A stretch of 64,000 nt of DNA, taken from NCBI GenBank assembly GCA_036924285.1, contig JAYKYS010000009.1, positions 4,898,001 to 4,962,000 on the forward strand. Reading direction: 5' to 3'. Each line of letters begins with the position of its first letter. The first letter of the stretch is position 1. The position numbers were made by a program, and so were the translations under genes. The notes under the pieces were generated by a model. It ran no database searches. It was not told the DNA's origin and saw nothing but the letters and a program-made list of their open reading frames with translations. Source of the stretch: Asterella californica. Its lineage: Eukaryota > Streptophyta > Marchantiopsida > Marchantiales > Aytoniaceae. Shown in pieces: positions 3,001 to 29,931 of the stretch.

Positions 3001-3466
3001 ATGAAGGATGTAAACAGCTGTGAGTTCCTCATCTACCGCAAATCACATCAACTGTGGAACTCCTGGATGAAATCATCCAGCTCGATGGTATCCATTGTAC
3101 CCGAGTAACATCGAGATACCTTCGTGACTCCATAGATCTCGTCCATGTCTCACAATAACGGTGTGGTGACAGTCGACTCATTATCAAAAATGCGTTATCT
3201 GCGTCTGACTTGTCCTCTGGAACAACCGACGGCAATGGTGTAGATAGTCGATATCTCACCCCACTCTGTGTATACCCACTGTCCGAGAAATCCTCACAAG
3301 AACCTCTTGAGAATTCCGTGATGATAGAAACTCTATAACACACTCTCCAACCAGAATGTTGAAATCCCCGTCACCATCATAACCACCACTTGCCTAACCT
3401 CGCTCCTACTGAGCTCACCTATCCCCTACTAGGATGGTCAAGGTAAGGGTAACTTATACTTGTCAA
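1..3466 (-). mobile_element. Decayed, truncated copy of the methyltransferase-bearing Ty3/gypsy element
   Basis: This stretch aligns by eye, end to end and in the same orientation, with 24836-28326 of the better-preserved element. It covers the N-terminal half of the methyltransferase (near position 1), the protease, the zinc knuckles and Gag, and ends in the 5' leader near 3466, where similarity stops abruptly in AT-rich DNA. It runs off the window on the left, so the pol half may lie outside. No long frame survives: the Gag, protease and methyltransferase pieces are in several frames with many stops. In the first 120 bases I count about 11 substitutions against the good copy, about nine of them transitions, plus a 2-base indel. 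It is a pseudo-element without coding capacity. Confidence 0.93.
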
Positions 3467-11700: not shown

Positions 11701-14700
11701 TCAAGTAAGAAGCCTGTACCGTTTGAGCACTTTAAACTTGTGATTCTTCTCTATCTGTGCCTTGGCAGATTCATTCACCTTTTCCTTACTTCGTGCGTCT
11801 CACTCACTAAGTTGCCTGTGCATTTGTTACGGTCTACGTGTCCTTTTCTTCTTTAAGTTACTGATATAGTTGAAAGGTGTGGCTCACTAAGCTGAGCAGT
11901 GCATCGTTCACTGGTCTACGCCATGTCCCTAAGTGGTTCTTATCTTCTTGCTGCGATTCTGTACAACTTTCAAGGTTTCGTTCCTATGCTTCTCTGCAGA
12001 TGGCTGAGCTATATGGCTTGAGAGCAGTACCTGTTGGTGGGGGGGAGATTCGCGGTGGTGGCAGTGTGTGGGTGTGTCCTGAAGTGAGTGAAGCCTCAAA
12101 ACCCTAGTGTCTGCCTTCATCGTTGGTTAAGGTTTGATTATCGTTTTGTTGTTCTTGTGAACTTTGACCTTACACAATATACTTATTGATTGTGTATTGA
12201 GGTGATTCTAAACTTGAACCTGAAAATTACTGCCACTAATGACGTGTTTTTGAACGGTTATATGTTCATGGCTACCAATACTGCTTAGAATTGTAGGACT
12301 CAAGTTGGTCTGGACTATCTTCAGCTGCTCTCCATAATGGATCTATCAGTAGATGAAGAGTATTCTCATACATGGTGACAGTAAGTTTTTTTTTCCTCTG
12401 TATACGTGCACAGGGAGAAGTGGATCCTTCAGCCGTGAACATCGACTGCTCAGGACAAGTTGCTACCGATCCTTTACTTCGGTTCTATATTCCAACCGGA
12501 GTCGAAATCCCCTCTTCTACCTTTGGAACTTTGCACAACGAAGCAAAGATTCGAGGCTCCATCCTCATGCCGTACATACTTGCCCCTCTAACTTGTACTG
12601 ATATTTCGTCCTTTGATCGTCTCGGTTGCTTCCCTCTTTGTTGTCTAATTTATTGCGTAATTCATGTAGAAGCATCTGGCCCTTTTCTAGTTATTCGATC
12701 CATGACAAATTGCGTATGGGGTGAAAGCCCGATCTTCGGCCTCTGCACTTAGTTACATCAACCTACTGTAATGCATGCAGCCTATAACCTGAACGCAACG
12801 CAAGGCGCGTGTTACTCTTCTGAGGACTCAGTCGTTACTCTTCTGAGGACTCACAACTGACATCATATTTTCTTCCGCATATGCTTGTAGATTGGATATA
12901 TCCTAAAGATTGATGATTAGCTGAATCTTGTATCTTAATCACAGTCCTTGGGATAATGAACGTGGAAATGTGGTGTTACGTTTTCAGCGTCTTTGACATC
13001 AAGTGGAATACACCAGAAGCGCAAGGTCCGTTTAGTGGAGCGCATGGTAATGTGCATATTTCGCGCGAAGCAATAGTCCTGAACTCTTCTGCTTTCACAT
13101 ATGACCTGTCATCGAAACTAAACACTCTGCACCCTCCAATTGATCCTAAGAGGAAAAAGGTGTTTGAATACAAACCTGCTCCACCACCTACCATCGAGGG
13201 GCTTGATGTCGACTTGAGACTAAGGGGGTTTGATATTATGGGAATGTCCCATTTACAATCACCTCTGGCACCTTCATCGCATATGAAAGTGACGGGCAAA
13301 GTCAAATTCAATGGATATGTGCCAAAGTCAGAAATCAACGAGGCAGCAGTGGAGGGAACGTCTTTGAGATCGGAGTCGAAGGATCGAGCTGGAATCTCGC
13401 AATCAGGGAAGGGAATCCCGGGTCTAAAGGGTGAGATCTCATTAGCGGGCGTGAAACTGAATCAGCTTCTTGTTGCTCCTCAACTTAATGGTTCTCTGGA
13501 AATATCTCCAACTAGCTTCAAGGTAAAACTGTACTCCACGGAATGATAGATTCATTCATCTGCTGGTATTACACAAGTTGCAGACCTTTTTTACAGAAAA
13601 AGTGAAGCTTAATGTGGCACTCCACTTTGTTACATACCAGGATGTTCTTGTTGTGTTTCGTCCTGTTTCATCCGAAGTAATCTGAAAGGAGATGTAAGTG
13701 AACCTGGGGAATTTAATATTTTTTGATCTGTTTCAGGTTCATACAACAGGGAGGCCTGATGAACATCTCCATGTTCTTGTATCGAAGCGGTCGGTGGGTA
13801 ATGCACCTGCTCCAGATTCCTTCTTTGAACCATTTGACGAAGGTGCCTCATTCTCCTTACTAAGGGGTCAGCTTCGCACTGACCTGCACTTTCAACCCGG
13901 TCACTCAGCAAGAGTAGAGGTTTGTTAACCTTGTCCGTAACCTCCCTTCATATGCTGCAAAGTCCTTGAGCGGTTGTTGTACATACTGGTAGACCTATCA
14001 AATTGAAGGCTTGGAGGTATGGTTTGCAGATACGAAATTTGCAGCTTGATGAGCTAGAACTTGCATCTTTGCGAGGTGCCGTACAAAAGGTGAGATTTCT
14101 GACCAGGTTCCGGTTGCAGCGTCAGACCTAGAAGACCTTTCTCAGTTTGCTATGCATTTCTTTCATAGTTAAATCAGGAGTGCAGTCTGTAAACATGTGG
14201 TGGTCACACTCACATGACTGGTGGACTTATTTTGCTGTACTGTTGACAGGATACATTATAGAGTGCGCGTTTTCCGTTGGTGTACTAAACGACTTTCTTA
14301 ACTTCGCGCATACGTGTCGAACAGGCAGAGTTGGCACTTAATTTTCAGAAGAGGAGGGGGCAAGGAAATTTATCCGTTCGTCGACCCCGTTGCAGTGGTG
14401 TACAGGGAGAATCATTGGATATCAATGCGCGGTGGTCCGGTGATGTGGTACTGTTTCGCTCAACTACCCTAGTGTGACGTTACGGCGAGATCTGCTGATT
14501 CTATGCTTTTGTCTTTCTGTATGTGAAACTCGTGGACATATTCTGATCTTCCTACATCAGTGGGCACGCAGATCACTCTTGACAAACTGCTTCTGGAGCA
14601 AGCGAACAGTAGGTACGAGATGCAGGGCGAGTACGTTCTTCCTGGGTTACGCGATCGAACTGTCATAGAGAAAGGGAAGGAAGCTAGAATGTGGGAGAAA

Positions 14701-17700
14701 GCGATGGCAGGGCATCTAGGGAACATGATCACCTCTATGGGACGATGGCGCCTTAGGTTGGACGTTCCGAAGGCTGAGGTCTCTGATATGCTGCCTGTTG
14801 CCCGTCTGCTTTCCAGAAGTAGCGATCCGGCCGTCGTTTCAAGGTCCAAGGTGAACACATTTTGCCGAAGTGCCTTTCTTTGCCGAAACACTTCTTAACG
14901 TGGCTGGATGGAACTGGAGGTCATGTAAATGCATTTGAGTCTGAATGCGAGCATATCGTGAGCTTGGAGTCGTTACTCTTCGTGAATGAGCTGTCACAGA
15001 AGTCGTTCTGTCACTATTGTTTGACTTCCTAATCCTTAGTTTGGGTCTGTTCTCTATCGTCTCTAGCGCTTTCTAGTCAAATCAAGGCCTTGTTCCCGTG
15101 CTCTTGTTTTAAATAGCCAAATGCTTATTGCCTGGATTTGTTTCTTGGGTGGTAATATTTGATCGCTTCCTTGGGATGTCTATGTAGAGGTTTCAGATAA
15201 TGCTTTCCGCTGAACGCTGACGCTGGACTCGCGAAAGAATCGCGGTATAGCCAAACCTTTACTGGTTTCCAGTGTGGGTCGGTGACTCCCGCTGCATACC
15301 GGGGAAAACATGGGGATCAGTTTAGGTCAGATGAAATTGGACTGGACTTGAGGTCCTTGTTGAAGTATGTGAAGGCTGGAACTGATCTTGATTGATTTTC
15401 TACCTGCAGGAGTTGTTTCTGGAAAGTGTGTCAGCTGTGGGTTTTCATGCGGAAAATCTCAAGGAGCACCTTGAGGTAGGATGTCTATGGCAACAGTCTT
15501 CCTTCTAGATGAAGGCACGGTCCTCTAGAGTCGTTTTGGGGTGATCCGGGGTTCATACATGTCCTTGCGCGCATATACGTATTAAGGTTCTGCTCTGCTG
15601 TTATTCCTGGCATACGACACCTTTTCTGATTATATCTTTTGGCCGGTAGATTGACAACTAGACTTTTGTTCCTGTTTCCCGAACATATGTCTTACTCTGA
15701 CGTGAGAATTGTTTCCGTTGGAGATGTACTGTTTGAGTCGTATGCTTGATTATTATTGCTGTAATAAGTAATGAACTAGGGCTAAGAGCTGATCAAGCTT
15801 CCGTTTGTTTCTAGCCTAACTGAACTAAATACTAAATCTCTCGGATCTTTCAGTATCTACGAAGGAGCAAGGGCACGACTACGTCAGAGGGCACTCCTGA
15901 GTCTATACCGCTCCCTGGTCTCGCGGAGTTGAAAGGTGCATGGCATGGAACTCTCGACGCAAGTGGTGGCGGAGATGGTGATACATATGTACGGATCTGT
16001 CTACTTGTACCATTTTGATGGGCGATGTTTTAATTGCTGCTTATAATTGTTGCTAGGCGCAAAAGCTGATTACTTCACTTGTCGCAGGCTGACTTTGACC
16101 TTCGTGGCGAGGAATGGGAGTGGGGTACTTACAAAACCAAAAGAGTAATAGCGATAGGAGATTACTGCAACACTGATGGGCTTCGGCTTGAAAAGTTTTT
16201 CATACAGAAAGACACTGCTACCTTGCACGCAGATGGAACTCTTCTCGGACCGAAACCCAATCTTCACTTCGCTGTGTTGAATTTTCCTGTCGACCTTGTT
16301 CCACCCCTGATGCATGCTATCCAGTCTTCAACGCCTGAACCTTTCTTATCTCCTTCCACGCGACCTTACCATACTCCAATCAAAGGGATATTGTATACGG
16401 AAGGTGATTTGCGCGGTACTTTAGCGAAGCCGCAGTGTGATGTTCAAATCAGGTTGTTAGATGGAGCCGTGGGTGGTATCAGTCTCGGCAAGGCGGAGAT
16501 GGCTGCGTCCATAACTTCAGCCAATCGACTAGCTTTCAATGCGGTCCTAGAACCAGTTGCTCAAAGTGGGCATGTCCGCGTTCGTGGAAGCTTGCCGATG
16601 GGCCCTGGCGGCTTGGAGGAGAATGAGGTGGAGGTTCAAGAAAGAGACAAGGAAAAGCGTAGCAGGACGAGAGGGTGGGGAAGAGAAAGGAATCGGGATA
16701 GGAAAGATGACGAAGAAGATGAAAAGAGCGAGAGTGTAGAGAAGGGAGGAGAAGAAGGGTGGGAAGTGCGCCTTGCTGAAAGCTTGAAGTCATTAGATGG
16801 AGAGTTTCTTGAAAGCGGTGCAGTGCAAGTTGATGCAGCGGTTAAGGATGGAGGCATGATGTTGCTTACAGCCATTTCTCCAGGTTTGCATTGGCTCCAG
16901 GGTAACGCAGATATCAAGCTGCAGGTACACAAAGCTCTTCTGCTCTTGAAGGTTTTGGTCAGAATTTTCTGGTTGTACGGACTACTTCTTGATGCTTGAT
17001 GATGATGCTTCTGGGAGGAGGGGGAAACACTGCCAGCAGTCCGAAAGCTAGTAGGTCAGTAATGTTACATTAGAACGCGCTCGTGGATGGTGGACGTAGT
17101 TCTGGGGTGAGCGTAGACATTGTCAGTAAAGATGTCCGGAATGCCGTAGGAACTTGACTGGATCGTTAGAATACGCAGGGGAGTGTAGAGAAATTGACTG
17201 CATGATGGTTGCCACAGGTGAGAGGTACTGTCCAGCAACCAGTTGCAGATGGGATAGCGTCTTTCCACAAAGTTGCCATCTCCTCTCCAGTCCTTCCGAG
17301 ACCATTAACAAACATGGGAGGCACTATCCGTGTAAAGAACAATCAGCTTTTTGTTGAGGGGTTAGAAGGGCGAGTTGGTCGTAGAGGTCTGGTGGAAGTC
17401 AAGGGACAGCTGCCTCTGAAAGTCAGTGACATTGTGACGAATGGTGATGCCATTGAACTGAAGACTGAACATCTTGAAGTGCGAGCCAGAAATGCATTCA
17501 GGTAACATGGCTCGACCGATCTTTCAGTGCCTGGTGAGAGCGACGTTCCTCTGAGCAAGTATGTGAGCAAAGTCTCGTGTAAGCTCCGAAGTGGTTTAGG
17601 CTTCGAGGTTCTAACTGATTGAAAGTCGTGCGTATTGACACTAATACTGCAGGGAGTGTCAGAGTCATTTCAGTTTACAGCTTGGTGTTTTCAGTGTACG

Positions 17701-19563
17701 GTCGCGTTGCATCTATGTCTTGTAGCAAATGTGGTCAGCTTAACTTTCTTTCAGATGTTTTGCTTGTTCTTATTCCTTTCCGGTTGTGAACTATTGGACG
17801 ATAGCGGTCAAGTAAACAGTCAGGTGAGGTTGATGGGAACGCTGCTGGAACCGGAAGTGACTGGTATGATAAAGCTCAGCCACGGAGAGGCTTATCTTTC
17901 TCAAGAGAAGGGCAGTAGTACTCCTCCTTCGACTATATCTACAAGCCCACCAGGAGGAGGATACAGCTGGATGGCAGCGGCATCGAGTGTTGCTCGCCGC
18001 GGTCCCGACATCTTTCCGCTACCAGAGCAGCTTGTGAACCAAAAACCTGGTGGGTTCGTAAGTTCTGTACGGATGGCATGGTTGGGAGACCTAATTTTAA
18101 ACTGTCGAGCTTCACGTGCGGAGGTGTTAGTATCTTCTTGTACATAGAGCTGCATATCTTAAGAAGTTGTAAGGCTGTAACAAGTCCATTTCTTGCTGTG
18201 ATTCCAGAGAAAAAGGAAGATCCAAAAGATGGGAGAAGCCTTGGTCTTCTGCCGCCTTTAGATATTCGTCTACGGAGTTTGAAACTTTTACTCGGACCAG
18301 AACTAAGGATGGTCTATCCGCTGATACTAAACTTCGCTGTCAGTGGAGAATTGGAGCTCAATGGCTATGCAGATCCTCTTCGCGTCAAACCAAAGGGTAC
18401 ATTGACATTTGAAAATGGTGATGTCAATCTGGTAGCTACTCAGGTACAATCTGCTCTTCACTCGAGATATTCAAACCGGTAGTCCACAATACCGGAAACG
18501 TCTTACAAAGAGTTTCGTGCTTCGTGTATGGCTTTGATCGTCGAAGCACGTTTCGCGCAAGTCCATGAGCCGTGTTTATCCAGGATATTTGACCATACGC
18601 GTCTTGCAGGTAAGGCTGAACAAGGATCATCCAAACAGGGCCAAATTTGAGCCTGAACAAGGTCTAGATCCGAGCTTGGACTTGGCCCTGATCGGTGCTG
18701 ACTGGCAGCTTAAGGTGCAAGGGCGAGCAAGGAATTGGCAAGACAATATTGTCGTCAGTTCAACTCGGTCAGGAGAACAAGATGCTCTCACACGAACGGA
18801 GGTTCTTTTCGCTTCTTCTCTTATTCATGTTAAAAAGAAGGTCATATACAATTTGCTTTCATCTTTGAAGTACATACGTAGCAGTGGACAGTGTTTTGGT
18901 TTCCTACTTGACAGTGCATCTGTACACTGCAGGCCGCTAGAGTATTTGAGAGCCAACTTGCAGAGTCTCTTCTAGAAGGAGACGGTCAGCTTGCGTTTAA
19001 AAAGCTTGCCGCTGCAACAGTTGAGACTCTCATGCCACGGATTGAAACCAAGGGAGAGTTTGGGCAGGCTCGATGGCGTCTGGTATCAGCTCCTCAAATT
19101 CCTAACCTTCTTTCTCTGGATCCAACGACTGATCCCTTCAAGTCCCTTGCCAACCTTTCTTTCGGAGCCGAAGTGGAGGTGCAGTTGGGTAAACATCTCC
19201 AGGTAACTATACGCGAGAACTGGACCTTTTCCCAGTTCCAAGGAACTAAATGTCGAGATAGGGCATAGGTATCGACAACTGGTTGTCAAAATTCCTAGAC
19301 GAATGCAACGTGACAATCACCATACATCTTATTGATTCGGTGGTTTCTCCATACCTCTTTGACATCCTAGTGTGGTTGAAGGTACTGATGGATTTTGAGT
19401 GGCATGGCAGGCTTCAGTGGTGCGACAGTTGAAGGAGTCTGAGATGGCAACCCAATGGACTTTGTTGTACCAACTGAACAGCAAGCTACGGTTGCTGTTC
19501 TCGTCTATACCTTCTGTGGACAATCGGCTGCTCTTTGAATATTCTGCTACTTCACAAAATTGA
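5792..19563 (+). CDS. TIC236: TIC236, plastid inner-envelope translocon protein of the TamB/DUF490 family (23 exons)
   Basis: TIC236 is a plant homologue of bacterial TamB. It is anchored in the inner plastid envelope, reaches the outer translocon and is needed for protein import. Exon 1 encodes a Ser/Arg-rich transit-peptide-like N-terminus, one membrane segment near residues 154-172, a conserved AsmA/TamB-like stretch to about residue 275, and a long charged low-complexity region. It ends with the conserved YFKEGSLMLLAYGD block. Exons by GT-AG and phase: 5792-8466, 8685-8883, 9164-9223, 9549-9653, 9851-10027, 10848-10910, 11457-11687, 12000-12083, 12414-12571, 12988-13522, 13737-13919, 14030-14089, 14325-14447, 14572-14850, 15410-15475, 15854-15988, 16088-16924, 17218-17501, 17805-18057, 18210-18443, 18610-18801, 18933-19202, 19411-19563. 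The sum is 7356 nt (2451 aa plus stop) with no break in frame. C-terminal landmarks include NPDEGEY, LDELELASLRG, EWEWGTYKT, HADGTLLGP, ENGDVNLVATQ and LLFEYSATSQ. The least certain joints are the starts of exons 5 and 20 and the 5' start codon. Confidence 0.95.
10690..10709. repeat. Short perfect hairpin inside a TIC236 intron
   Basis: GGGTCCCT and AGGGACCC form an 8-bp perfect stem with a TTTT loop within the 820-bp intron between exons 5 and 6. The intron otherwise shows nothing recognisable. A function is not implied. Confidence 0.5.
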
Positions 19564-20278
19564 TCCATTTGTACAGATTGCTGAACGTGTTCTCACCCAT
19601 AGATTACGGTCAACCTACCCTTCATTCCCTCCTAGTACATACACCTTCAAAACAAAGGAATGCGGGTTCTTTGAGGGATCCTCCCTCAGATTTTGAGTCC
19701 TACTTTGATCGAGAGACTGTTCTCGTTGAGACTGCTCTGCAACTGTCTTTCTCAGTCAGAGCCCCTCCTTCGGCCCGAACTTTGGACTTCTTTGTTGATA
19801 GTGTCCCGTTTGTCTAGGAGAATAGATACCCCACTGAACATGCCTGGTATCATCTAGGTCTTCCACATCTTCGTATCGCAATCCGCGTTCTTCTGTTAGT
19901 TCTTCGTCGCCTTCCCCTAAAGCGGGTGACTCTGTAATAATAGGATAATTCACCCAGCAGGAATACCGCTATGACAGATTTGGGGACTAATCAGCGGTAG
20001 CTTTAGGGCCCAGCTTTCATCGACGACAAGTGGGTTCTTTGTACCATGAAGTTTATTATTCAAGCCATTGGAAATTACGCCCGGTAGTTTGCTTGCAATG
20101 TTGTCTGATTGTCGTCAACACATTGATCTGAACCGGCTTACAGGATTCTATACAAATCGATATATGTCTGGCGCCTTCTTATTTGATGTCAAGAATTTAA
20201 ATCCCTTGGAGCTCAAAAAGTGAAAGTAAGTTAAACTTTATAGATCAAGAATACTCTACAGGAGATTGCATTCATGTG
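19564..20278. other. TIC236 3' flank and target of the gypsy insertion
   Basis: This contains the TIC236 3' untranslated region and flank. No other gene is visible. It ends with ATGTG (20274-20278), which is repeated at 29927-29931 on the far side of the retroelement and is therefore the likely target-site duplication. Confidence 0.6.
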
Positions 20279-20386
20279 TGTCGTGCGCATACACATCGTT
20301 ACACAACATACATCGCTTTCAGGGGTACATCACACATACATATAACACATGGACGATGTCATACACATACACAAGTGTATCACAAT
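20279..20386 (-). repeat. Terminal repeat B2 (outer copy, 108 bp)
   Basis: This matches 20683-20790 over its full 108 bp with six substitutions. It is CA/TG-rich, contains many ACACAT motifs, and starts TGTCGTGCG at the element boundary. Confidence 0.9.
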
Positions 20387-20680
20387 TAATCTGAATACAG
20401 AGATTATCATCTCCAACACAATAACAAGGACTATTCACAAACAGTCAAGCCAAACCCACTCTAAACGCGAAGAGAATCCGGGTTACATTCAACTAGACTA
20501 TCCACCATAGCCTGGAGCTTGAAGGCTCAACTCAAAGAACTAAGGCCTCCAAGCCCTACCTGCGAAGTTTACCCTTAGTGTGCTCTCTCTCCAACTCGCC
20601 CTAACGGCACTAACGGCCTTACCGGGATGTGTCACTTCGCACTCGGTCAACCTAGCCGAGGTGCCCAAACTGACGTGACA
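20387..20680 (-). repeat. Terminal repeat A2 (294 bp)
   Basis: This matches 29634-29927 over the full 294 bp with about 11 substitutions, mostly transitions. It is preceded directly by B2 and followed by GC and then B1 in plus-strand reading. Confidence 0.93.
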
Positions 20681-20682
20681 GC

Positions 20683-20790
20683 TGTCGTGCGCATACACAT
20701 CGCTACACAACATACATCGCTGTCAGAGGTACACCACACATACACATAACACATGGACGATGTCATACACATACACAAGTGTACCACAAT
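20683..20790 (-). repeat. Terminal repeat B1 (inner copy, 108 bp), likely U3-like
   Basis: This is the inner copy of the B repeat. In sense orientation it directly follows a G-run (complement of 20791-20798), as a U3 region follows a polypurine tract. It is joined through GC to A2, making the perfect 10-bp palindrome GACAGCTGTC at 20677-20686. Confidence 0.9.
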
Positions 20791-20801
20791 CGCCCCCCTA
20801 A
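20791..20801 (-). promoter_or_regulatory. Candidate polypurine tract
   Basis: The plus strand reads CGCCCCCCTAA, which is TTAGGGGGGCG in sense orientation, immediately before repeat B1. That is where a plus-strand-priming polypurine tract is expected in an LTR retroelement. It is short, so the call rests on position as much as composition. Confidence 0.55.
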
Positions 20802-20961
20802 CTGGCGGTTAGGTCCCTCTAACTCCAGATAGCTCCATATCCCAACTACGTGATACACACCTTCATGGGTGCAAGGATCAGGAGGCCGGGTGCTACATTG
20901 CCTCATCGTTAGTCGCCTGTCTGCAATCCATACCACGCAAAGATCTAATCGACTATCTCCG

Positions 20962-23900
20962 CTATATACATCGAGGACAAACCCACCGTCCAGTAGGAAC
21001 TACACTGAGAGGTGGAGTCAAACATGACATGTGCCAACCTCTCGAACAACCATCACACACCAACATACGGGCTGCTCCACCAGCAGACCCACACAACATA
21101 CACCTCAAGCCCGCGCGTACAACTGCTAAGCTTGGGTCAACGGTACCATCAATGTTGGGAAGATGACATGGCGCGCAATTACGCACATGGTCCTTCCACA
21201 CAACACCATCACGGCCCTCTAACATGAGTACTCCAGAAGGTAACACCTCACGCACTCGTAAAATAGTGCGTCCTGCGGTCACGTCCAACGTCGTCGGTGC
21301 AGTCTGCTGTAGATAGATATAATCGCCAGGATGAAACCTGCGAATCGACGACCGATAACCTCCTCCTCGGATAGTCGCATACCTCAACGTGTCTCTATGC
21401 TGGGCAATCGCTAGGTTCTCAAAAGCCATAGGCATAACTCTCCGAAATGTCTCTGCTCGTTGAGAACATGCTCTCACCCACATATCCGGGTCATCAAGGT
21501 CCAGCACCCCAGCAGAATCACGACGAATGGCCGAAGGTAGATCTGGATCTCGGCCATACAATAAGAAATACGGTGAGAAGGAAGCCAAAGACGCTTGTCG
21601 GCTAAAACGGTAGCCCATAGCCAACCATGGTAGCTGCACATCCCAGTCTCCCAAGTGGCCCTTCTGCAAGCCATACTTGCGCAATCCTCTCTTCACCGTC
21701 TGAACTACCCTCTCCGCCAAACCATCCGCCTCAGGATGATCTCGAGATGTAGTCCGATGATCAATCAATGCCTGATCACACAAGGCCTGAAACTCACCAA
21801 GGAACTCTGTACCTTGGTCTGTCAGCACTTCAGCTGGTGCTCCAAAACGACTCAGCACTCGATCTAAGAACGCATACGCTGTCCCTTCACTCGCCTTGTC
21901 TGGTAATGCCACCAACTCAATCCACTTGGAGAAGTGCTCCACCATCACCAACACATACCGGTGGTGACGTACGGTCAACGGTAAGGGTCCCGCAAAATCC
22001 AAACTCCAACGGTAACCCAACCCCATAATCGGTAAGGGGTGTAACTGTGGAGTAGGAGCATTAAACGATGCTCGTACTCGATCACAAACCACACATCGTG
22101 CGACAAACTGTTGCACATCGATGTGCATACCACTCCACCAATACTGTCCTTGGAATAAGCTATGTGTACGCTTCACTCCAAAATGTCCCAACTCCTCATG
22201 GGCATGTCGTACTAACTGTGCCCTCTGGGATGGATGTGGCACTATTCGTACCCTTCCATCACCCCACACTCGAAGTACATGTCGTCCTTCTCGTCGAAAT
22301 CTCTTCGCTCGTTGAAGAACACGATCTCGCTCCTTGGCACTTACTGTGCCTACTATCACACCACTGCGTAGATACTCCATCACGGTCACATCATCATGGA
22401 TATCCCGCTGATCTGGAACACCATCTCCACCCTCAGGATCTGGAGACTCGTCATCTACTCTCTGACCAGAGAAAGATACGACTTGGCCCTCCATACTAGA
22501 GTTCATGGCCAACACACAAAGAAAGGCAGATGCATGCCACCCTAGCACTATCTCCTCATCAACCTCGTCATGCCATCGAGCCCCAGTCTGATCCTGCTGA
22601 CTCGTGCACGGGTTGCGACTCAACCCATCGGCATCTAGGTTTGCAACTCCAGGTCTATGTACTACCTGGAAGTCATACTCCTGTAAGATCAGAGCCCATC
22701 GTGCAAGCTTCCCTGTAAGCTTGTCGGACTCCATCAACCACTTGAGCGGCTGGTGATCAGTGATGAGAGTAAAGGGGTTCCCAAACAGATAACATCGAAA
22801 GTGTGCAACAGCCCACACTGCCGCCAAACACTCTCCCTCATACGAACTATACCTCGCCTCCGTTGAATTGTTGGAGCGACTGGCATACACCACCACGAAC
22901 TCCTTTTTCTCATCATCATGCTGAGTCAGCACTGCTCCAAGTCCCAACATACTCCAATCGGTGTGCAGTTGGAAAGGACGCCCTCTAACGAGTCTACTCA
23001 AGATGGGAGCAGATGTCAACGTATCCTTGAGCTCTACAAAAGCTCGCTCCTGCTCATCTCCCCACTGCCACTCCTGGTCCACCTTCATCAGCTTGGTCAA
23101 CGGCTTCGCAATTGCACTAAACCCTTTCACGTATCGACGATAGAAGTTCGCCAAACCAACAAATGCTCGAACTCGACTCACATCTGTGGGGCGTGGAATA
23201 CGTGCAATAGCCTCAACCTTCGTCTGTTGAACACCCAATCCACCTGGATAGATGGTGTGGCCCAGATACTCTACCAACTCCTGGAAGAACTTACACTTCC
23301 CAGGGTGTAACTTCAACCCATGAGCTCTCAACCGCTCAAACACATCCCGTAAGTGTCTCTCGTGCTCCTCCACTGTAGCACTATAGACTAAGATGTCGTC
23401 AATATAACATCTGACAAAATCCAATCCTGCTAGGATTCTGTCCATCACCCTTTGGAACTCAGCAGGGGCGTTCTTCAACCCAAATGGTAAGAACCGCCAC
23501 TGATACAAACAATCCTTGCCGTGAGAGTCAATTCCCCAGAATGCTGTCTTGGACTTATCTTCTTCTCTCACTGGCAACTGATGATACCTTGCTCGAAGAT
23601 CCAAAGTACTGAAGACCTTCACATGCCCCACTGCATCAAAGATCTCCTCAGGTGTCGGCATGGCATACTTATCGGACTTCGTCTGCCGATTGATAGGACG
23701 ATAGTCCCCACACATCCGTCTATCTGTGTAGTTGCCATACATATCCTTCTTGGCTGACATAACTGTGGCAGATTCATACTCTCCATGCGACATCTCCACC
23801 AACCCAGCCTCCAACAAGTCTTGAGTCCGACTCTGGATCAAGGCTCTCTCCATGTCACTGTACCTGTAAGGACGTCGAAAGATTGGCGTGTCATTAGCCA

Positions 23901-24057
23901 AGTCGATCCGTATACCAGGTCCCTTCAAAGTACCCAAATCCTTCATACTGAAGGCAAAACAATTCCTGTAGCTCTTCAGGAATCTTTGGACTCTTCGTCT
24001 CTCCTCTCCTATAAGCTTGGGTCCGATCTCCGGCTCCCAAGTATCCTCTGTCACCAT
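20962..24057 (-). CDS. Pol polyprotein: reverse transcriptase, RNase H, integrase, C-terminal PHD finger
   Basis: This 1031-aa frame encodes the enzymes of retrotransposition. Reverse transcriptase has YIDD near residue 218. RNase H follows with HTDWS, YEGECLA and ITDHQPL. An HHCC zinc module (HEELGH, CVVC) precedes the integrase core, with catalytic D687, D747 and E782 and the conserved HPEADGLAER. The last 46 residues form a C4HC3 PHD finger (C986, C989, C1001, C1004, H1009, C1012, C1027, C1030), in the place where chromoviruses carry a chromodomain. PHD fingers commonly read histone H3 tails, so a role in target choice is a reasonable inference. The first ATG is at 24057, but the frame is open back to a UAG at 24088-24090 and is continuous with the methyltransferase frame upstream, so pol is probably made as a fusion. 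Confidence 0.95.
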   Translation of the reverse strand: MVTEDTWEPEIGPKLIGEERRRVQRFLKSYRNCFAFSMKDLGTLKGPGIRIDLANDTPIFRRPYRYSDMERALIQSRTQDLLEAGLVEMSHGEYESATVMSAKKDMYGNYTDRRMCGDYRPINRQTKSDKYAMPTPEEIFDAVGHVKVFSTLDLRARYHQLPVREEDKSKTAFWGIDSHGKDCLYQWRFLPFGLKNAPAEFQRVMDRILAGLDFVRCYIDDILVYSATVEEHERHLRDVFERLRAHGLKLHPGKCKFFQELVEYLGHTIYPGGLGVQQTKVEAIARIPRPTDVSRVRAFVGLANFYRRYVKGFSAIAKPLTKLMKVDQEWQWGDEQERAFVELKDTLTSAPILSRLVRGRPFQLHTDWSMLGLGAVLTQHDDEKKEFVVVYASRSNNSTEARYSSYEGECLAAVWAVAHFRCYLFGNPFTLITDHQPLKWLMESDKLTGKLARWALILQEYDFQVVHRPGVANLDADGLSRNPCTSQQDQTGARWHDEVDEEIVLGWHASAFLCVLAMNSSMEGQVVSFSGQRVDDESPDPEGGDGVPDQRDIHDDVTVMEYLRSGVIVGTVSAKERDRVLQRAKRFRREGRHVLRVWGDGRVRIVPHPSQRAQLVRHAHEELGHFGVKRTHSLFQGQYWWSGMHIDVQQFVARCVVCDRVRASFNAPTPQLHPLPIMGLGYRWSLDFAGPLPLTVRHHRYVLVMVEHFSKWIELVALPDKASEGTAYAFLDRVLSRFGAPAEVLTDQGTEFLGEFQALCDQALIDHRTTSRDHPEADGLAERVVQTVKRGLRKYGLQKGHLGDWDVQLPWLAMGYRFSRQASLASFSPYFLLYGRDPDLPSAIRRDSAGVLDLDDPDMWVRACSQRAETFRRVMPMAFENLAIAQHRDTLRYATIRGGGYRSSIRRFHPGDYIYLQQTAPTTLDVTAGRTILRVREVLPSGVLMLEGRDGVVWKDHVRNCAPCHLPNIDGTVDPSLAVVRAGLRCMLCGSAGGAARMLVCDGCSRGWHMSCLTPPLSVVPTGRWVCPRCI

Positions 24058-24081
24058 GCTAGAGGTAGAAGACGAAGTCGT

Positions 24082-24090
24082 TGACTGCTA
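24082..24090 (-). promoter_or_regulatory. In-frame UAG stop in a readthrough-type context
   Basis: In sense orientation the sequence is UAG CAG UCA. The methyltransferase frame and the pol frame are the same frame, separated only by this stop. UAG followed by CAR-YYA is the known leaky context of tobamovirus-type readthrough, and CAG UCA fits that consensus. A plain CAG-to-UAG deamination mutation would look the same, so programmed readthrough is an inference. Confidence 0.55.
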
Positions 24091-24822
24091 TCTTGCAGCC
24101 TCTGGAGCAGTTTCCTTCTGCTCACCACCAACAACCTCCACCGCTACTGTGTGTAAAACTTCTGCAGTTCTAGCTGCAAACTCCACACTCTCTCCTATGA
24201 CATCCCATGATGTCCAAGGATGACGAACTCCACGTGCCTCGTCCCCAGCCTTTGCCTCCACCGACCCGGTAGGCAAAGAGCTCAAGAGTGCTCGAGCAGT
24301 AACACCCATCGATCGCATCCGACGCTGCTCAGCCAATCCAAGGCTAACAATCCATGTCAAGCAATTCAAGTCCATTGCTTGACCCAATACTTGACGACGT
24401 GAAGCCTCCGACACCGAAGCTACTGCCGTCGTACCCGTAGTGAAACCCATCGCTCGCTCTCTCTCATCGGCATTGGGCTCCACCAACTGCCGTAATTGAG
24501 CATCCCACACAAGCCCAGGTCCTCCATCTCTGTAAGCATGTGACGCTGGAAAGCTTACCAATGTGGGTAATGCTACCATGGGCCGTCCCACTAGGTTCAC
24601 CACTGCCATGGGTGACCTATCGACGACTCTCACTACTTGAGATCGTCGTCCTGCATCCAAGATGCTATCAACCGTGAGGTGCGCTGGTCGTCTCACTCCA
24701 TCGTGTGCGCACTTAAGCACCTCTCTCGGTAACAAGTTCGTCCACCACAACCGTGGACGATGTGCACGAGATCCCACTCTCGCTGCATCCAACAACACTG
24801 CTGGTCCAACCCAAGACCGCAC
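24088..24822 (-). CDS. C-terminal half of the element-encoded cytosine-5 DNA methyltransferase
   Basis: This 244-residue open stretch continues the methyltransferase domain from the preceding frame. It has an RPRLWWTN block like the R-x-R/TN segment after motif VI, then DERERAMGF and RRQVLGQAMD. The last two correspond to the C-terminal motifs around ERxxxxGF and motif X (LGxA/S), which complete the AdoMet pocket in C5 methyltransferases. The first residues overlap the end of the Gag-protease-methyltransferase frame, so the true join is a shift near 24801-24836 rather than an independent start. The tail (VEVVGGEQKETAPEAAR) looks like a linker and ends at the UAG before pol. Confidence 0.8.
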   Translation of the reverse strand: MRSWVGPAVLLDAARVGSRAHRPRLWWTNLLPREVLKCAHDGVRRPAHLTVDSILDAGRRSQVVRVVDRSPMAVVNLVGRPMVALPTLVSFPASHAYRDGGPGLVWDAQLRQLVEPNADERERAMGFTTGTTAVASVSEASRRQVLGQAMDLNCLTWIVSLGLAEQRRMRSMGVTARALLSSLPTGSVEAKAGDEARGVRHPWTSWDVIGESVEFAARTAEVLHTVAVEVVGGEQKETAPEAAR

Positions 24823-27800
24823 TTGGGTTGGACCAGCATCTGTGTACGAGCATCACCCAACAAAGGAACATTCTCCAAGATGTATGCTGGAGAATCCACC
24901 TGATGCATCTGGAGATGTCGTAGGATCCGTAACATCTCCCAGAACATCCTAGATCGCGGGTCATGTAAACCCTGACCTCTCCCTGCACGCGTGTGACCTT
25001 GACATGACCATCCGGCTATCACCAAGTGAATGGTGCCCACAAACGTAAGATCCTGCGCCCCCAGCAGCGAAATATTCGACGGTAATGCTTGCTGGTATCC
25101 TCTAACAGCTGATATGGGCAACAACTCAGGATATCTCTGCACCAAACGTGCCACATGTCGCAATGAGATGCTTCTCGCAATCTCATCTCTCTCCACATAC
25201 AAGTATCGCTGTACTTGTATACCTACCTGCAATACCGCAGCCAAACCTGTGCTGATCCCTCCAAACAGCTCCAGCACACATACACCTTCCTCTGGATACT
25301 GCCACACAATGGGAGTCGTATCCAACGGTGATAAGGTCACAGGACCAGTAGCAGGAACAACCCTTTGTTCCTCTACTGGTGGTACAAAAGCTTCACTCCA
25401 AGCCTGCTGCACCAACTGATCAGCATACTGCTGCAACTCTCCACTCGAACTCCAGAGTGGCACATCCAAGGCAGATGGTATTAACGTAGACATGCTAGGC
25501 ATGTCCTCCACCTCCTCATAGATCGGAGTATCCTCCGCATGGGCATTACCCTCCAACAACTCGTCCGGCCAAGTGATGATCGAACTGAACCCTGCAACGG
25601 ATGCCATCGTTCCTGGTGTAGGCTCCGTCGTCCCTACTCTAGCACTGAACCGCACTGGTAAGCGGCTCACTCGTCCCTCACCGGACTGCCAACCTGGCCT
25701 GTAAGATGCTGTCTCTGCCCAATAGTCAATCACGAACCCCATAGGGTACAACACAGCACCTCCCACCAATACATCATAAGACTCTGCGGCTGTAACAATG
25801 GCCTTGGCCTTCACCATAGAGCCATCCGTGGGGTGATCTGACCGAACTCTCACCGTCAACATCTCTCGTGTCATGTGTAGAGCCGTACCTCCTGATCCCC
25901 CTAGAGATGTCTGCAACTGGAATGGACATCTCTCTATCTCGGACTTCTTCAGACCCAAACCAATACACGCCGCCTTTCCCAACATCAACGGTTGGGCTCC
26001 AGAGTCTAACAAGACCTTCTGGGGTCGATACACTTTCCCTGAAGGTGCCACCAAACAGAAGATACTACTTCTGTTGTCCAACAACACCACACCTGGTGCC
26101 AAACTAGCACGGTCAATCGCCGGCCTAGCTGATAACTCATCTAACCTAGCAGCCGCCGCTTGCCAAGTACCACTGGTAGCTGTCCTGATCCTCGACTCCA
26201 TGGACACGTCTACCGCCTCTTGTTGAACTACTTCAGCACTAGAGGTAACTACATCCTCGCTCTCACTGAGTGTGGCCGCCAACTGGAACACTGGAGCCAA
26301 GTTGACTCCCAATGCCCTCATATCCGTGGCTGAGAATAGTGGGGCTCGCAAAACTGCTGTAGCCGCCCCCAACATCGGGTTCGACGTCGCATCCACAGAC
26401 GTCGAAGGTGGACTCACATCACACCCACTCCTGGATGTCGATGCCTCCAACTCTACTGCACCATCGGTAGGTCGTTTAGGAACCATAGATGTGGTCCTCA
26501 ACGCCTCCGATAACGTGAACGACTGGGGAAGCCTGGCTTGTCTACCAGCCTCCCCGCGTTGTGGATCCAACTCCACTGACGCACCTCGTGGCTCAGAGGC
26601 ACGTACTGCACCTCTAGTCACTGCTGCAGATGCCTCAATCTGCGCCACACCAGCCATGAAGTCGAAGTCACCTCCTTCTCCTCCATAAGACGTGGAAGCC
26701 TTTGTTCCACCCGATCTCCGCTGAGCCATAGCCATACTAGCTATCCTCTGCTCCAACTGCTCAATCCGAGCAGCCATACCTGCTTCTGACATCGTAGCAG
26801 GCGGTGGACCGATCGGTCCTCTCCCAGGTGCTGGACCTCTACCTCCAGCTCGACCACCACGGCCTCCTTGAGCTCCTCCGCCTCGTCCACGATCAACCTT
26901 CCCTTGCCGCAACTCGGGATGGAGATCAAAACAACGGTCACTACTGTGACCAGGTCGTCCGCAATGCTCACATTGCCTAGGTACTGCTTGAGACGTCCCT
27001 GATGTCCCTGACGTCTCATAACCTCTCCTCTGTGGACAGTCCCTCTGCTGATGAGGACCATCACACGTCCAGCAAGGACCCGCTTGCTGCTGACTAGAGA
27101 AGGACGGCATGGGCTTCTGCCCACCAGATCCTCCTACACCTCCCTGCGATCGTGACTGCTCTGCACGATCCTTACCACCACCACCACCACGCTGTTGCGT
27201 AGCCTGTGATCCTCGAGAAGAGGTGGTCGCTCCATGTGGTGTCTCCTTGCTGAACCCAGCAACCACCACCCTCTCCTCCACCATGTTGAGCTCAATCCGC
27301 TCAGCCAGACTAAAGACAACCGCCAACGTCGGAGCGGTATCTCTAAGAAGAGTAGCATCTCTAACTCTCCTACGCAGCTCCCGGTCTAGTATCCCATACC
27401 AGAACTGGACTGCCTGTGCTTCCGTCACCCCTTGGGTAACGCTGATCAACCGCCTCATGCGAGTAAACGCCTCGCGTAGGCTCTCTCCAGTCTTCCGCTG
27501 GAACTCGTGCAGACTCCTCAACTTGTCGGTCCGCACACCCTGATAGTTCTTCCTCAAACATTGGAAGAACTGAACCACAGGGTTAAACCCTGGTGGTATC
27601 CCGCTCACACTACCACCTGCTCCACTACTTGTGGATGCACCGGTAGTAGGTACTCCACCACCTGTGGCTGCACCACTGCTACTGGCACCCGAACTCGCAG
27701 GTGCTACGCCTCCCGAAACTGCGCCAGTAGTGATAGAAACGTAGTTGGGAGACCAATGTTGTCTCCACAACTCGATCTCAACACTGTAATCTCGCCTGAA

Positions 27801-28223
27801 CTCATGATAATCGTCCATCGGCGGTCCCTCCAAGTGTTGGAACAAACCCTTCCACGCCATGAAGGGTGTAAACAACTGTGGGTTCTGCATCTGCTGCAGA
27901 TCGCACCAACTGTCGAACTCCTGGATGAAGTCATCCAGCTCAATGGTACCAACTGTACCCGAGTAACGTCGAGGCCCCTTCGTGACCCCATAGATCTCGT
28001 CCATGTCCCACAACAACGGTTTGGCGACACTAGACTCACCACCAGAAAACGCGCTGTCTGCGTCTGACTCGTCCTCTGGAACAACCGACGGCAATGGTGT
28101 AGGTAGTCGGTACCTCACCCCACTCCGTGTATACCCACTGTCCGAGAAGTCCCCACCAGAACCTCCCGAGAACTCCGTGATGAGCGAATCCCGCCAACAC
28201 CCTCCCCAACTGGAATGTCGCAA
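24693..28223 (-). CDS. Gag - aspartic protease - N-terminal half of DNMT3-like methyltransferase
   Basis: This is a 1176-aa frame. Residues 1 to about 340 are a Gag-like region with a Ser/Gly/Ala/Thr-rich linker. Two zinc knuckles lie near residues 382 (CWTC) and 418 (CEHCGRPGHSSDRC), in a Gly/Arg-rich context suited to RNA binding. A retropepsin-type active site, LLDSGAQ, is near residue 740. From about residue 980 there is a cytosine-5 methyltransferase. Motif I is LELFGGISTGL, followed by GIQVQRYLYVERDE. The catalytic motif IV is GWSCQG, with Cys near residue 1070 and Ser in place of the usual Pro. Motif VI is ENV near residue 1117. The FGGISTGL and GIQVQRY layout is closest in my memory to DNMT3/DRM enzymes. 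The frame ends in out-of-frame sequence just after a hairpin, while the rest of the domain continues in another frame. Confidence 0.9.
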   Translation of the reverse strand: MRHSSWGGCWRDSLITEFSGGSGGDFSDSGYTRSGVRYRLPTPLPSVVPEDESDADSAFSGGESSVAKPLLWDMDEIYGVTKGPRRYSGTVGTIELDDFIQEFDSWCDLQQMQNPQLFTPFMAWKGLFQHLEGPPMDDYHEFRRDYSVEIELWRQHWSPNYVSITTGAVSGGVAPASSGASSSGAATGGGVPTTGASTSSGAGGSVSGIPPGFNPVVQFFQCLRKNYQGVRTDKLRSLHEFQRKTGESLREAFTRMRRLISVTQGVTEAQAVQFWYGILDRELRRRVRDATLLRDTAPTLAVVFSLAERIELNMVEERVVVAGFSKETPHGATTSSRGSQATQQRGGGGGKDRAEQSRSQGGVGGSGGQKPMPSFSSQQQAGPCWTCDGPHQQRDCPQRRGYETSGTSGTSQAVPRQCEHCGRPGHSSDRCFDLHPELRQGKVDRGRGGGAQGGRGGRAGGRGPAPGRGPIGPPPATMSEAGMAARIEQLEQRIASMAMAQRRSGGTKASTSYGGEGGDFDFMAGVAQIEASAAVTRGAVRASEPRGASVELDPQRGEAGRQARLPQSFTLSEALRTTSMVPKRPTDGAVELEASTSRSGCDVSPPSTSVDATSNPMLGAATAVLRAPLFSATDMRALGVNLAPVFQLAATLSESEDVVTSSAEVVQQEAVDVSMESRIRTATSGTWQAAAARLDELSARPAIDRASLAPGVVLLDNRSSIFCLVAPSGKVYRPQKVLLDSGAQPLMLGKAACIGLGLKKSEIERCPFQLQTSLGGSGGTALHMTREMLTVRVRSDHPTDGSMVKAKAIVTAAESYDVLVGGAVLYPMGFVIDYWAETASYRPGWQSGEGRVSRLPVRFSARVGTTEPTPGTMASVAGFSSIITWPDELLEGNAHAEDTPIYEEVEDMPSMSTLIPSALDVPLWSSSGELQQYADQLVQQAWSEAFVPPVEEQRVVPATGPVTLSPLDTTPIVWQYPEEGVCVLELFGGISTGLAAVLQVGIQVQRYLYVERDEIARSISLRHVARLVQRYPELLPISAVRGYQQALPSNISLLGAQDLTFVGTIHLVIAGWSCQGHTRAGRGQGLHDPRSRMFWEMLRILRHLQMHQVDSPAYILENVPLLGDARTQMLVQPKCGLGLDQQCCWMQREWDLVHIVHGCGGRTCYRERCLSAHTME
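24801..24836 (-). repeat. Perfect 15-bp hairpin at the methyltransferase frame change
   Basis: CTGGTCCAACCCAAG (24801-24815) and its exact inverse (24822-24836) are separated by six bases. The hairpin sits exactly where the methyltransferase domain leaves one frame and continues in the other. It may be a templated foldback mutation that caused the frameshift, or a structure that promotes ribosomal frameshifting. The sequence alone does not decide. Confidence 0.85.
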
Positions 28224-29633
28224 TCTCCGTCACCACCGTAACCACCACTTGCCTAACCCCGCTCCTACTGAGCTCACCTATCCCCTACTAGGACGGTCAA
28301 GGTAAGGGCAACCTGTACCTGCCATCACCACAGGCAGCCTCTCACGGTCTGTTGGTCGTCACTCCAACCGCACCGTGAGAGAGACAAAGGTAGTCTGACT
28401 GGTCCGCAACTCCAGCCTCACTACCGACAGCACACTGGAGTGAACTCACTCCGGAAATCAAGCGCCAACACAAGCAAACGCGGCGCACAAACAGGAAGCA
28501 GAATATGGAGGGGTTCCAACCACAAGAAGTCCAAACGATAACCCTCCACACTCAAACATTCACATAAAGAGAAATCCAGCCCCACTCGGACTGACGTCTC
28601 CTCGTCAGTGACCACATGCACAATATATGATCACCAACTGTCGTAACTGACACTGGAGGTCACTAACTAGATGTCCACACCTCTAGTAGCTCCAAAAACA
28701 TCCACGTGGTAGCTCTACTAGCTCACCCAAGACAACTGCCACCAACTGCCTACATACGCGTCTCTACGGTATAGACAAACACTACCACAACTATAGCTTG
28801 CTCCTAATACTATGGGGTCGCCCTACCACTCCTCTAGGAACGTGCGAGAAGGTCTCCTACTACCTTAAACAAGTCCATAAGTACTTGCACGCATCCCTGT
28901 AGGACACCAAGAGCTATTGGTCTAGTGGTAAAGCCAAAGCTAAGACTAAAAAGTCAGGAGTCCAGATCCAGAAATAGTGTTGGGATGGGTGACCAGCTGG
29001 TTTTACCCTTCCCACACACTAGAACTTGGATACCTCTCTCACGCACGCCAGCAAGCTGGCTTGCGGCGGGCGCGGGCTCGGGCTCAGGCTCAGCTCCGCT
29101 CCGCCTCCGCACTCTCGCACTCCGCTCTCACGCCTCCGCACTCATGCACCTCTGCTCCTCGAAGCTCCTCGAAATTGAGCCAAAATCTGACGTAACTAGC
29201 CTTTTAGTGCTTGCGGGTTTCACGGCAGCGAACTTCGACATGCCATAACTTCTTCAGTCCTTGGCCAAACTCCACGAAACTTAGTGCGCTAGAATCGTCT
29301 CTCCAATGCGCTTCCAAAGAGTCCACTCCGGCCCGACATTGACAAGTATTTCAGCTGCTACGCCCAAACGCGCAATCCGGCTCCAACAACACACTTCAAG
29401 AACATTCCGCAAAATTTCTGCAGCGCTTCCGCATGACAGAAATCTCCACTCGACCCCAACGACAGCAAATCGATCTGCGACCACCAATGTAGCACGGCGT
29501 CCACACACCTCGATCACAGCTCCAAACAATCAACCACGAACGGCAACGCCCGAAGATACCAGCGGACGATTTCCGATTTCAGATCTGCGAGCTCTTACTG
29601 AACTCCGCCTCGACCTGCACTCAGTTCTTTGAG
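28224..29633 (-). other. 5' leader of the gypsy element
   Basis: This is the non-coding region between repeat A1 and the first long frame. No standard tRNA-Met primer-binding site is recognisable just inside A1; the sense sequence there begins CTCAAAGAACTGAG. The segment 29040-29170 is a GC-rich CTCCGC-type simple stretch. A tRNA-like or 5S-like patch lies at 28911-28998. Confidence 0.6.
28911..28998 (+). other. tRNA-like / 5S-like patch (possible SINE relic)
   Basis: The patch has an A-box-like TGGTCTAGTGG, a degenerate B-box-like GTCCAGATCC about 50 bases on, and GGGATGGGTGACC, which resembles the conserved internal segment of 5S rRNA. It lies antisense inside the gypsy leader. It is too short and imperfect to be a working tRNA or 5S gene. 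Confidence 0.35.
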
Positions 29634-29927
29634 TAATCTGAATACAGAGATTACCATCTCCAACACCACAACAAGGACTACTCACAAACGGTCAAGCCAA
29701 ACCCACTCGAAACGCGAAGAGAATCCGGGTTACACTCAACTAGACTATCCACCATAGCTTGGAGCTTGAAGGCTCAACTCAAAGAACTAAGGCCTCCAAG
29801 CCCTACCTGCGAAGTTTACCCCTAGTGGGCTCTCTCTCCAACTCGCCCTAACGGCACTAACGGCCTTACCGGGATGCGTCACTTCGCACTCGGTCAACCT
29901 AGCCGAGGTGCCCAAACTGACGTGACA
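29634..29927 (-). repeat. Terminal repeat A1 (294 bp), 5' end of the element
   Basis: This matches A2 (20387-20680) over its full length. It is not accompanied by a B repeat on either side, which is what makes the terminal arrangement unusual. It is followed by TGTG and host DNA. Confidence 0.93.
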
Positions 29928-29931
29928 TGTG

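Follow-up and report, generated by a model that had tools for sequence, protein, structure and literature searches.

We analyzed a 64,000-nt stretch of the genome of the liverwort Asterella californica (contig JAYKYS010000009.1), here called the window, to which all coordinates refer. Its minus strand carries, at 20279-29927, one copy of a multicopy Ty3/gypsy-type retrotransposon. Open reading frame 1 (ORF1) of the element encodes gag, protease, and a DNMT3-type DNA methyltransferase, and ORF2 encodes reverse transcriptase (RT), RNase H, and a DDE integrase ending in a PHD finger. A preliminary description of the DNA had proposed a gypsy element with a methyltransferase and a PHD-finger integrase, and Pfam, PDB-sequence, fold, and family evidence bore out this identity. 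Its boundaries were exact to the base, but the element as drawn there needs correction: the methyltransferase is split over two frames, and the ends are not ordinary long terminal repeats (LTRs). The order on the minus strand is A1, coding region, B1, GC, A2, and B2, with TGTG flanking both sides. The preliminary description did not mention this A-B-A-B arrangement of the ends, the target duplications, a self-primer, or a stop in frame. The features are as follows.

29928..29931, no strand: target site duplication TGTG, right (flank reading)
29634..29927, minus strand: A1, 5' terminal repeat, A only, 294 nt (96% to A2)
29778..29788, minus strand: predicted self-primer and RNA 5' end, 11 nt within A1, complementary to the primer site (perfect in 18/19 copies tested)
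29623..29633, minus strand: predicted primer binding site CTCAAAGAACT, directly after A1
24693..28223, minus strand: ORF1, with gag, protease, and the N part of the methyltransferase; the frame breaks inside the domain in the window copy
27036-27074 (variant spacing) and 26931-26972 (second), minus strand: gag knuckles, ORF1 (zf-CCHC, E = 0.46, under the Pfam cutoff)
25989-26015, minus strand: protease DSGA motif, ORF1
25257-25280, minus strand: methyltransferase motif I, ORF1
24996-25013, minus strand: methyltransferase motif IV, ORF1
24861-24875, minus strand: methyltransferase motif VI, ORF1
24088..24822, minus strand: C part of the methyltransferase, in a separate frame (alone, no Pfam match)
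24751-24765, minus strand: methyltransferase motif VIII, C part
24442-24465, minus strand: methyltransferase motif X, C part
24088..24090, minus strand: in-frame UAG stop, predicted readthrough site between methyltransferase and RT, with CAG UCA at 24082-24087 (21/21 copies)
20962..24057, minus strand: ORF2, with RT, RNase H, integrase H2C2, and DDE core (Pfam)
23395-23406, minus strand: RT YIDD motif, ORF2
20968..21102, minus strand: C4HC3 PHD finger, integrase end (Pfam and sequence comparison)
20791..20799, minus strand: polypurine tract AGGGGGGCG, directly before B1
20683..20790, minus strand: B1, 108 nt
20681..20682, minus strand: GC spacer in the internal site GACA-GC-TGTC, the proposed integrase site
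20387..20680, minus strand: A2, 294 nt
20279..20386, minus strand: B2, 3' terminal repeat, with the A2-B2 joint at 20386/20387
20275..20278, no strand: target site duplication TGTG, left (flank reading)

Pfam matched RVT_1, two RNase H models, Integrase_H2C2, rve, and PHD in the ORF at 20962-24057, and the PHD match (E = 6.7e-11) agrees with the earlier claim that a C4HC3 finger closes the integrase. The ORF at 24693-28223 matched DNA_methylase (E = 6.6e-6, over the gathering score). The domains follow the Ty3/gypsy order of protease (seen by its DSGA motif only), RT, RNase H, and DDE integrase. The methyltransferase had been placed between protease and RT; it does precede RT, but it belongs to the gag-protease ORF, ahead of the stop, and not to Pol. 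With its parts in two frames (24693-28223 and 24088-24822), the methyltransferase of the window copy is no working gene as it stands. The repeats of this copy match at 283/294 positions for A1 and A2 and at 102/108 for B1 and B2, and six other copies match at 294/294 and 108/108; the window copy is older and damaged.

To place this copy within its family, we searched the genome (516.7 Mb in 773 contigs), so that all copy data come from one genome and closely related copies. The protein search scored 45 of 31,314 first-look candidates, and we examined 31 of the 45: the window copy and the next 20 by rank at full length and 10 more at their ends only. A 24-mer spanning B1, gc, and A2 had 639 exact matches in the genome (reversed control, 0). 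As only 45 of the candidates were scored and the 24-mer is this frequent, the family and its remnants number in the hundreds. The methyltransferase region was matched in all 21 copies read at full length, and ORF1 was open, with at least 1,260 codons, in 15 of them. ORF2 had no stop inside the match in 33/45 scored copies, and the other 44 were 98% identical to the window ORF2. The ratio of nonsynonymous to synonymous polymorphism (pN/pS) was 0.19 for the methyltransferase domain and 0.03 for the PHD finger; for the tail after the methyltransferase domain it was 1.72, a value based on very few changes.

Terminal repeats and a proposed ring route of insertion

The 3' side reads B-A-B in 26 of the 31 copies, on many contigs. 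Four copies stop at B (L021, C52, C526, and C21), and one (L022) is broken by an inverted piece. All 25 copies readable at both ends have the termini TGTC...GACA and lie at 25 different sites, each with a perfect 4-bp target duplication (23/23 A-coding-B-A-B copies and 2/2 A-coding-B copies). No clear motif was found at these 25 sites, and the GC content of the flanks equaled that of the window. The two insertion ends are not identical LTRs, the 5' end being A and the 3' end A-B, and the order A1-B1-A2-B2 is the split direct repeat order of DIRS and PAT. The two A-coding-B insertions with 4-bp duplications, C526 (L061-L062) and C21 (L067-L068), may be either one-repeat ring products or the outcome of later B1 x B2 recombination. 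L009 has an inverted A-B piece between A1 and gag, and in the 3' region of L022, A2 is joined to an inverted copy; both arrangements are probably nested or foldback insertions.

The window copy alone would permit an ordinary LTR element with repeats rearranged once, or an assembly error. The recurrence of B-A-B in 26/31 copies, on many contigs and with differing target duplications, leaves this explanation with next to no credibility. We found no B directly before A1 in the 25 copies with both ends readable, and among 100 of the 639 exact junction matches no B/A junction had a same-strand partner at 9 to 11 kb; one same-strand pair was 14.9 kb apart. With no such neighbor, the 100 junctions listed include no conventional B-A-coding-B-A insertion. 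Within the copies examined, all from this genome, ordinary LTRs, a single rearrangement, and an assembly error are refuted.

The joint between A2 and B2 is variable. It reads CAGATT/ATTGTGG in 20 of 26 copies, two of these with a base change alongside. The remaining joints have one more A (two copies), an extra T, TGAC, a 23-nt filler, or a 19-nt filler followed by GGGGGGCG, which is the polypurine tract itself (one copy each). The joint with the extra A had 19 exact matches in the genome (control, 0). Copies L011, L018, L019, and L020 are internally only 0.03 to 0.09% apart yet have three different joints. Because such near-identical copies differ in it, the joint looks as if it were made anew at insertion, by apparent end joining of cDNA ends, and its inheritance is ruled out.

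In retroviral logic, a polypurine tract and a primer site mark the ends of the linear cDNA. Here the polypurine tract AGGGGGGCG adjoins B1 and the primer site adjoins A1, so the linear cDNA should read B-A-coding-B-A. In Tf1, an 11-nt self-primer located at the 5' end of the RNA initiates reverse transcription. In the Asterella element, the 11 nt that follow A1 are a perfect complement of A140-150 in 18/19 copies, and the base next to this complement varies between copies (G, C, or A). A tRNA primer is less likely than a self-primer, since A1 is nowhere followed by TGG in the copies printed (no comparison with host tRNAs was made). Self-priming of reverse transcription is known from Tf1/sushi elements (PMC6317226).

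From these observations we propose the following route. The RNA would start at about A140 and self-prime as in Tf1, and reverse transcription would give a linear DNA with B-gc-A repeats of 404 nt, its limits set by the polypurine tract and the primer site. End joining by the host would then connect the right end, CAGATT, to the left one, ATTGTGG, and integrase would cut GACA-gc-TGTC in the upstream repeat of the joined molecule. Insertion of both new ends with a 4-bp stagger would leave A-coding-B-A-B, the order that follows if the upstream site is the one cut. We assign a probability of roughly 0.7 to this reading, in which an element of gypsy, DNMT3, and PHD identity inserts from end-joined (circular) cDNA cut at the internal B/A site and not from its linear ends.

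Several points weigh against ring insertion. A ring with two identical B/A sites should also yield A-B-A-coding-B, and as this form was seen in 0/25 copies, an unexplained asymmetry of site choice is needed. The route is read from genomic insertions. The 20 of 26 joints that are the identical standard joint are what precise copying would also give. Finally, 4 of the 31 copies stop at B1 and lack A2-B2, with target duplications readable in two; these copies fit a one-repeat ring but equally fit later B1 x B2 recombination.

Copying as in DIRS and PAT is a rival that accounts for the missing permutation. In such a scheme the A-B-A-B order passes through the RNA, incomplete ends are completed on an internal B1-A2 copy, and integrase joins linear or nicked A and B ends. 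B2 and A1 would then be genuine termini, from which the restriction to a single permutation (0/25 alternatives) follows directly, and the repeat order equals the split direct repeats of PAT (PMC4157794). The joint, however, would be inherited under this scheme, yet near-identical copies differ in it, and one joint bears the polypurine tract, the marker of a conventional cDNA left end. No tyrosine recombinase model matched the ORFs at E values up to 1, and the accepted DIRS1 model yields no target duplication (PMC3266345). We therefore consider such copying unlikely, though far from as improbable as a rearranged LTR element.

A ring route was at one time suggested for retroviral two-LTR circles and later given up, and joined cDNA ends are usually taken as dead-end by-products of LTR elements. 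Elements of the Ty3/gypsy class are not known to integrate via a ring. If the proposed route is true, joined cDNA ends are the insertion substrate in this lineage, and A-B-A-B ends arose in a DDE element, with an enzyme different from that of DIRS.

The methyltransferase, the PHD finger, and their relatives

The C5-methyltransferase motifs are present in the order I, IV, VI, VIII, and X, and the predicted model of the domain aligns best with DNMT3; a non-methyltransferase fold is thereby rejected. Profile, PDB-sequence, fold, and family comparisons support a DNMT3-type enzyme. Motif IV had been given as GWSCQG with its catalytic Cys kept. The Cys is indeed kept, but the motif as written is the reading of the window copy only; the open copy L012 reads GWPCQG, and Pro precedes the catalytic Cys in 46 of the 76 family proteins with a letter at the site. 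Glu, which is unusual before the catalytic Cys of C5 methyltransferases, replaces Pro in 28/76 rows (18/28 for the RT-methyltransferase order, 6/17 for the methyltransferase-RT order, and the remainder in partial proteins).

ORF1 ends in frame before ORF2 at UAG CAG UCA in 21/21 copies. This sequence fits exactly the tobamovirus readthrough motif of type I, UAG_CAR_YYA; some leaky contexts allow 0.3 to 5% readthrough (PMC3542737). If the stop is read through occasionally, the methyltransferase, on the Gag side, would be synthesized many times as often as RT and integrase. At Gag levels, it would likely be packaged with the cDNA and would methylate it, and the PHD finger would bind histone H3 near the target. 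We hold with slightly less than even confidence a wider picture, that of an ancient streptophyte DDE-integrase lineage with obligatory ring insertion, host end joining, opening of the ring by integrase at an internal site of abutted ends as in bacterial IS rings, a Gag-level DNMT3 that marks particle cDNA, and a guiding PHD finger. Some evidence runs counter to these roles. The copies are close kin, so their 21 conserved stops are not independent events, and ORF2 may also be expressed by other routes. The retrotransposon DNMT of Klebsormidium gave no methylation in yeast, a result its authors call inconclusive, and the Klebsormidium copies carry CHH and CHG methylation as silent elements do, so that carrying a DNMT is no shield there (PMC5890265).

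The preliminary description had assigned the PHD finger to the choice of chromatin targets and the methyltransferase to marking the element, either to evade host silencing or to cooperate with it. This model is compatible with ring insertion. The PHD sequence is closest to those of CHD4, KMT2C, DPF2, and KDM5B, whose PHD fingers read the H3 tail, and its pN/pS of 0.03 also favors such a function, but the 25 insertion sites, lacking a clear motif and with flanks of ordinary GC content, are silent on chromatin. We regard the model as possible but doubtful. It is far less probable that the methyltransferase is a functionless passenger of a one-off transduction. The broken window copy and the pN/pS of the tail would fit a passenger, but ORF1 is open in most full-length copies and the domain has the low pN/pS given above. 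The enzyme also occurs, with its catalytic residues kept, in liverworts, a moss, Klebsormidium, Closterium, and many environmental proteins, and its distances correlate with those of RT. Copies lacking the methyltransferase were looked for among the 21 and not found, and a one-off transduction is rejected.

Relatives were sought in searches that each scored about 8,000 candidates, which gave 54 methyltransferase proteins and 400 pol proteins (120 listed). The named ones come from Marchantia, Calypogeia, Riccia, Sphagnum, Closterium, and Klebsormidium, and many are environmental. Among the matches listed, the best named pol relatives were from Calypogeia (82% over 73% of the query), Marchantia (81% over 41%), and Riccia (80% over 50%). 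For 41 two-domain rows (proteins with too little of either domain were dropped, and the window RT was paired with the L012 methyltransferase), two orders were found: methyltransferase before RT (15 rows) and methyltransferase between RNase H and integrase (26 rows). The second order forms one clade-like split in both the methyltransferase tree (98/97) and the RT tree (100/99). Distances in the two domains correlate with r = 0.65 over all 41 rows and r = 0.79 without the long branch P0097 (0 of 5,000 permutations, in a test that ignores kinship). Within the first and second orders, r was 0.90 and 0.53 (each 0 of 5,000, kinship uncorrected). Both the shared split and the distances bear on the codiversification that had been suggested as a check; three enzyme-lacking elements fall inside the first side of the RT tree. 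Overall, methyltransferase and pol seem to have traveled together through bryophytes and streptophyte algae.

Where 235 or more residues follow the integrase core, the PHD model matched 74 of 79 proteins (window included). Of the five others, P0055 and P0167 have a C4HC3 pattern, P0082 is degenerate by eye, and P0124 and P0145 have none. Many Closterium models end before the PHD site. The Klebsormidium nitens protein P0098 (methyltransferase, RT, integrase) groups with the window on the methyltransferase-RT side in both trees and ends before the PHD place; P0107 of the same species has RT, integrase, and PHD, with no methyltransferase match. One family member, P0049, is filed under a bacterial metagenome-assembled genome (Minisyncoccia), probably through eukaryotic contamination of the bin. 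No relative was found in the viral contigs searched with P0036 or in the genome contigs searched with P0049.

Elsewhere in the window, a second family copy, cut by the window edge, lies on the minus strand at 1-3465; it is 87.6% identical over 3.5 kb and seems to be an older copy or a subfamily. An exon-like stretch occupies about 5792-18500 on the plus strand, and the retrotransposon lies just downstream of it. These putative exons resemble those of a plastid TamB/TIC236-type gene.

Comparison with known elements

Tf1/sushi and Tcn1 chromoviruses resemble the Asterella element in having a chromatin-binding domain on the integrase, and they differ in their ordinary LTRs. In IS3/IS30-type bacterial insertion sequences, the inverted ends lie side by side in a ring, a few bases apart, and a DDE enzyme cuts the ring there; these are DNA transposons and serve as an analogy only. 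The chromoviruses also share self-priming (PMC6317226), but their integrase domain is a chromodomain, not a PHD finger, and they are not known to carry a methyltransferase. PHD fingers have been reported in Ginger DNA transposons; one further paper on PHD fingers with integrases only cites a CR1 report.

The closest known element is KnitGypsy-Dnmt3 of K. nitens (de Mendoza et al. 2018; PMC5890265), the DNMT-carrying Klebsormidium retrotransposon that the preliminary description had rightly mentioned. Both have Gypsy domains, a nonrearranged DNMT3 methyltransferase, and purifying selection, and one legend sentence gives KnitGypsy-Dnmt3 DIRS-type repeats (PMC5890265). P0098 is of this type, a gypsy pol with a DNMT3 domain, and is kin to the Asterella element in both RT and methyltransferase. 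The reported DNMT of KnitGypsy-Dnmt3, however, lies inside the Pol ORF, whereas the Asterella enzyme ends ORF1 before UAG-CAG-UCA. In the available text of that account we found neither target duplications nor a primer, a polypurine tract, a variable joint, or a model of integration, and its main text nowhere mentions PHD (0 occurrences; PMC5890265). SymbioDIRS-Dnmt3 of Symbiodinium also has a DNMT3-type enzyme, but it is a tyrosine recombinase element, was reported as an independent acquisition, and methylates CG in yeast (PMC5890265). A 2025 survey places DNMT3 members in LTR Copia and DIRS elements of streptophytes and dinoflagellates (PMC12344493).

With PAT and DIRS, the Asterella element shares the A1-B1-A2-B2 split direct repeats (PAT) and the circular intermediate proposed for DIRS1, but those elements use a tyrosine recombinase and the Asterella element a DDE integrase (PMC4157794, PMC3266345). 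Its ORFs have rve and H2C2 matches and no Pfam match to a tyrosine recombinase. The DIRS1 model is without target duplication, unlike the 4-bp duplications seen here (PMC3266345). In open-licence PMC literature, judged by title or abstract start, we found no account of joint variation, target duplications, ring integration, the in-frame stop, or liverwort members of this family. What appears to be new is the liverwort host, the PHD finger in 74/79 family proteins, the two separating domain orders, the UAG-CAG-UCA stop, and the variable joint with 4-bp duplications. The element also makes it possible to test in plants why retrotransposons carry DNA methyltransferases, and the ring mechanism would be new for a DDE retrotransposon.

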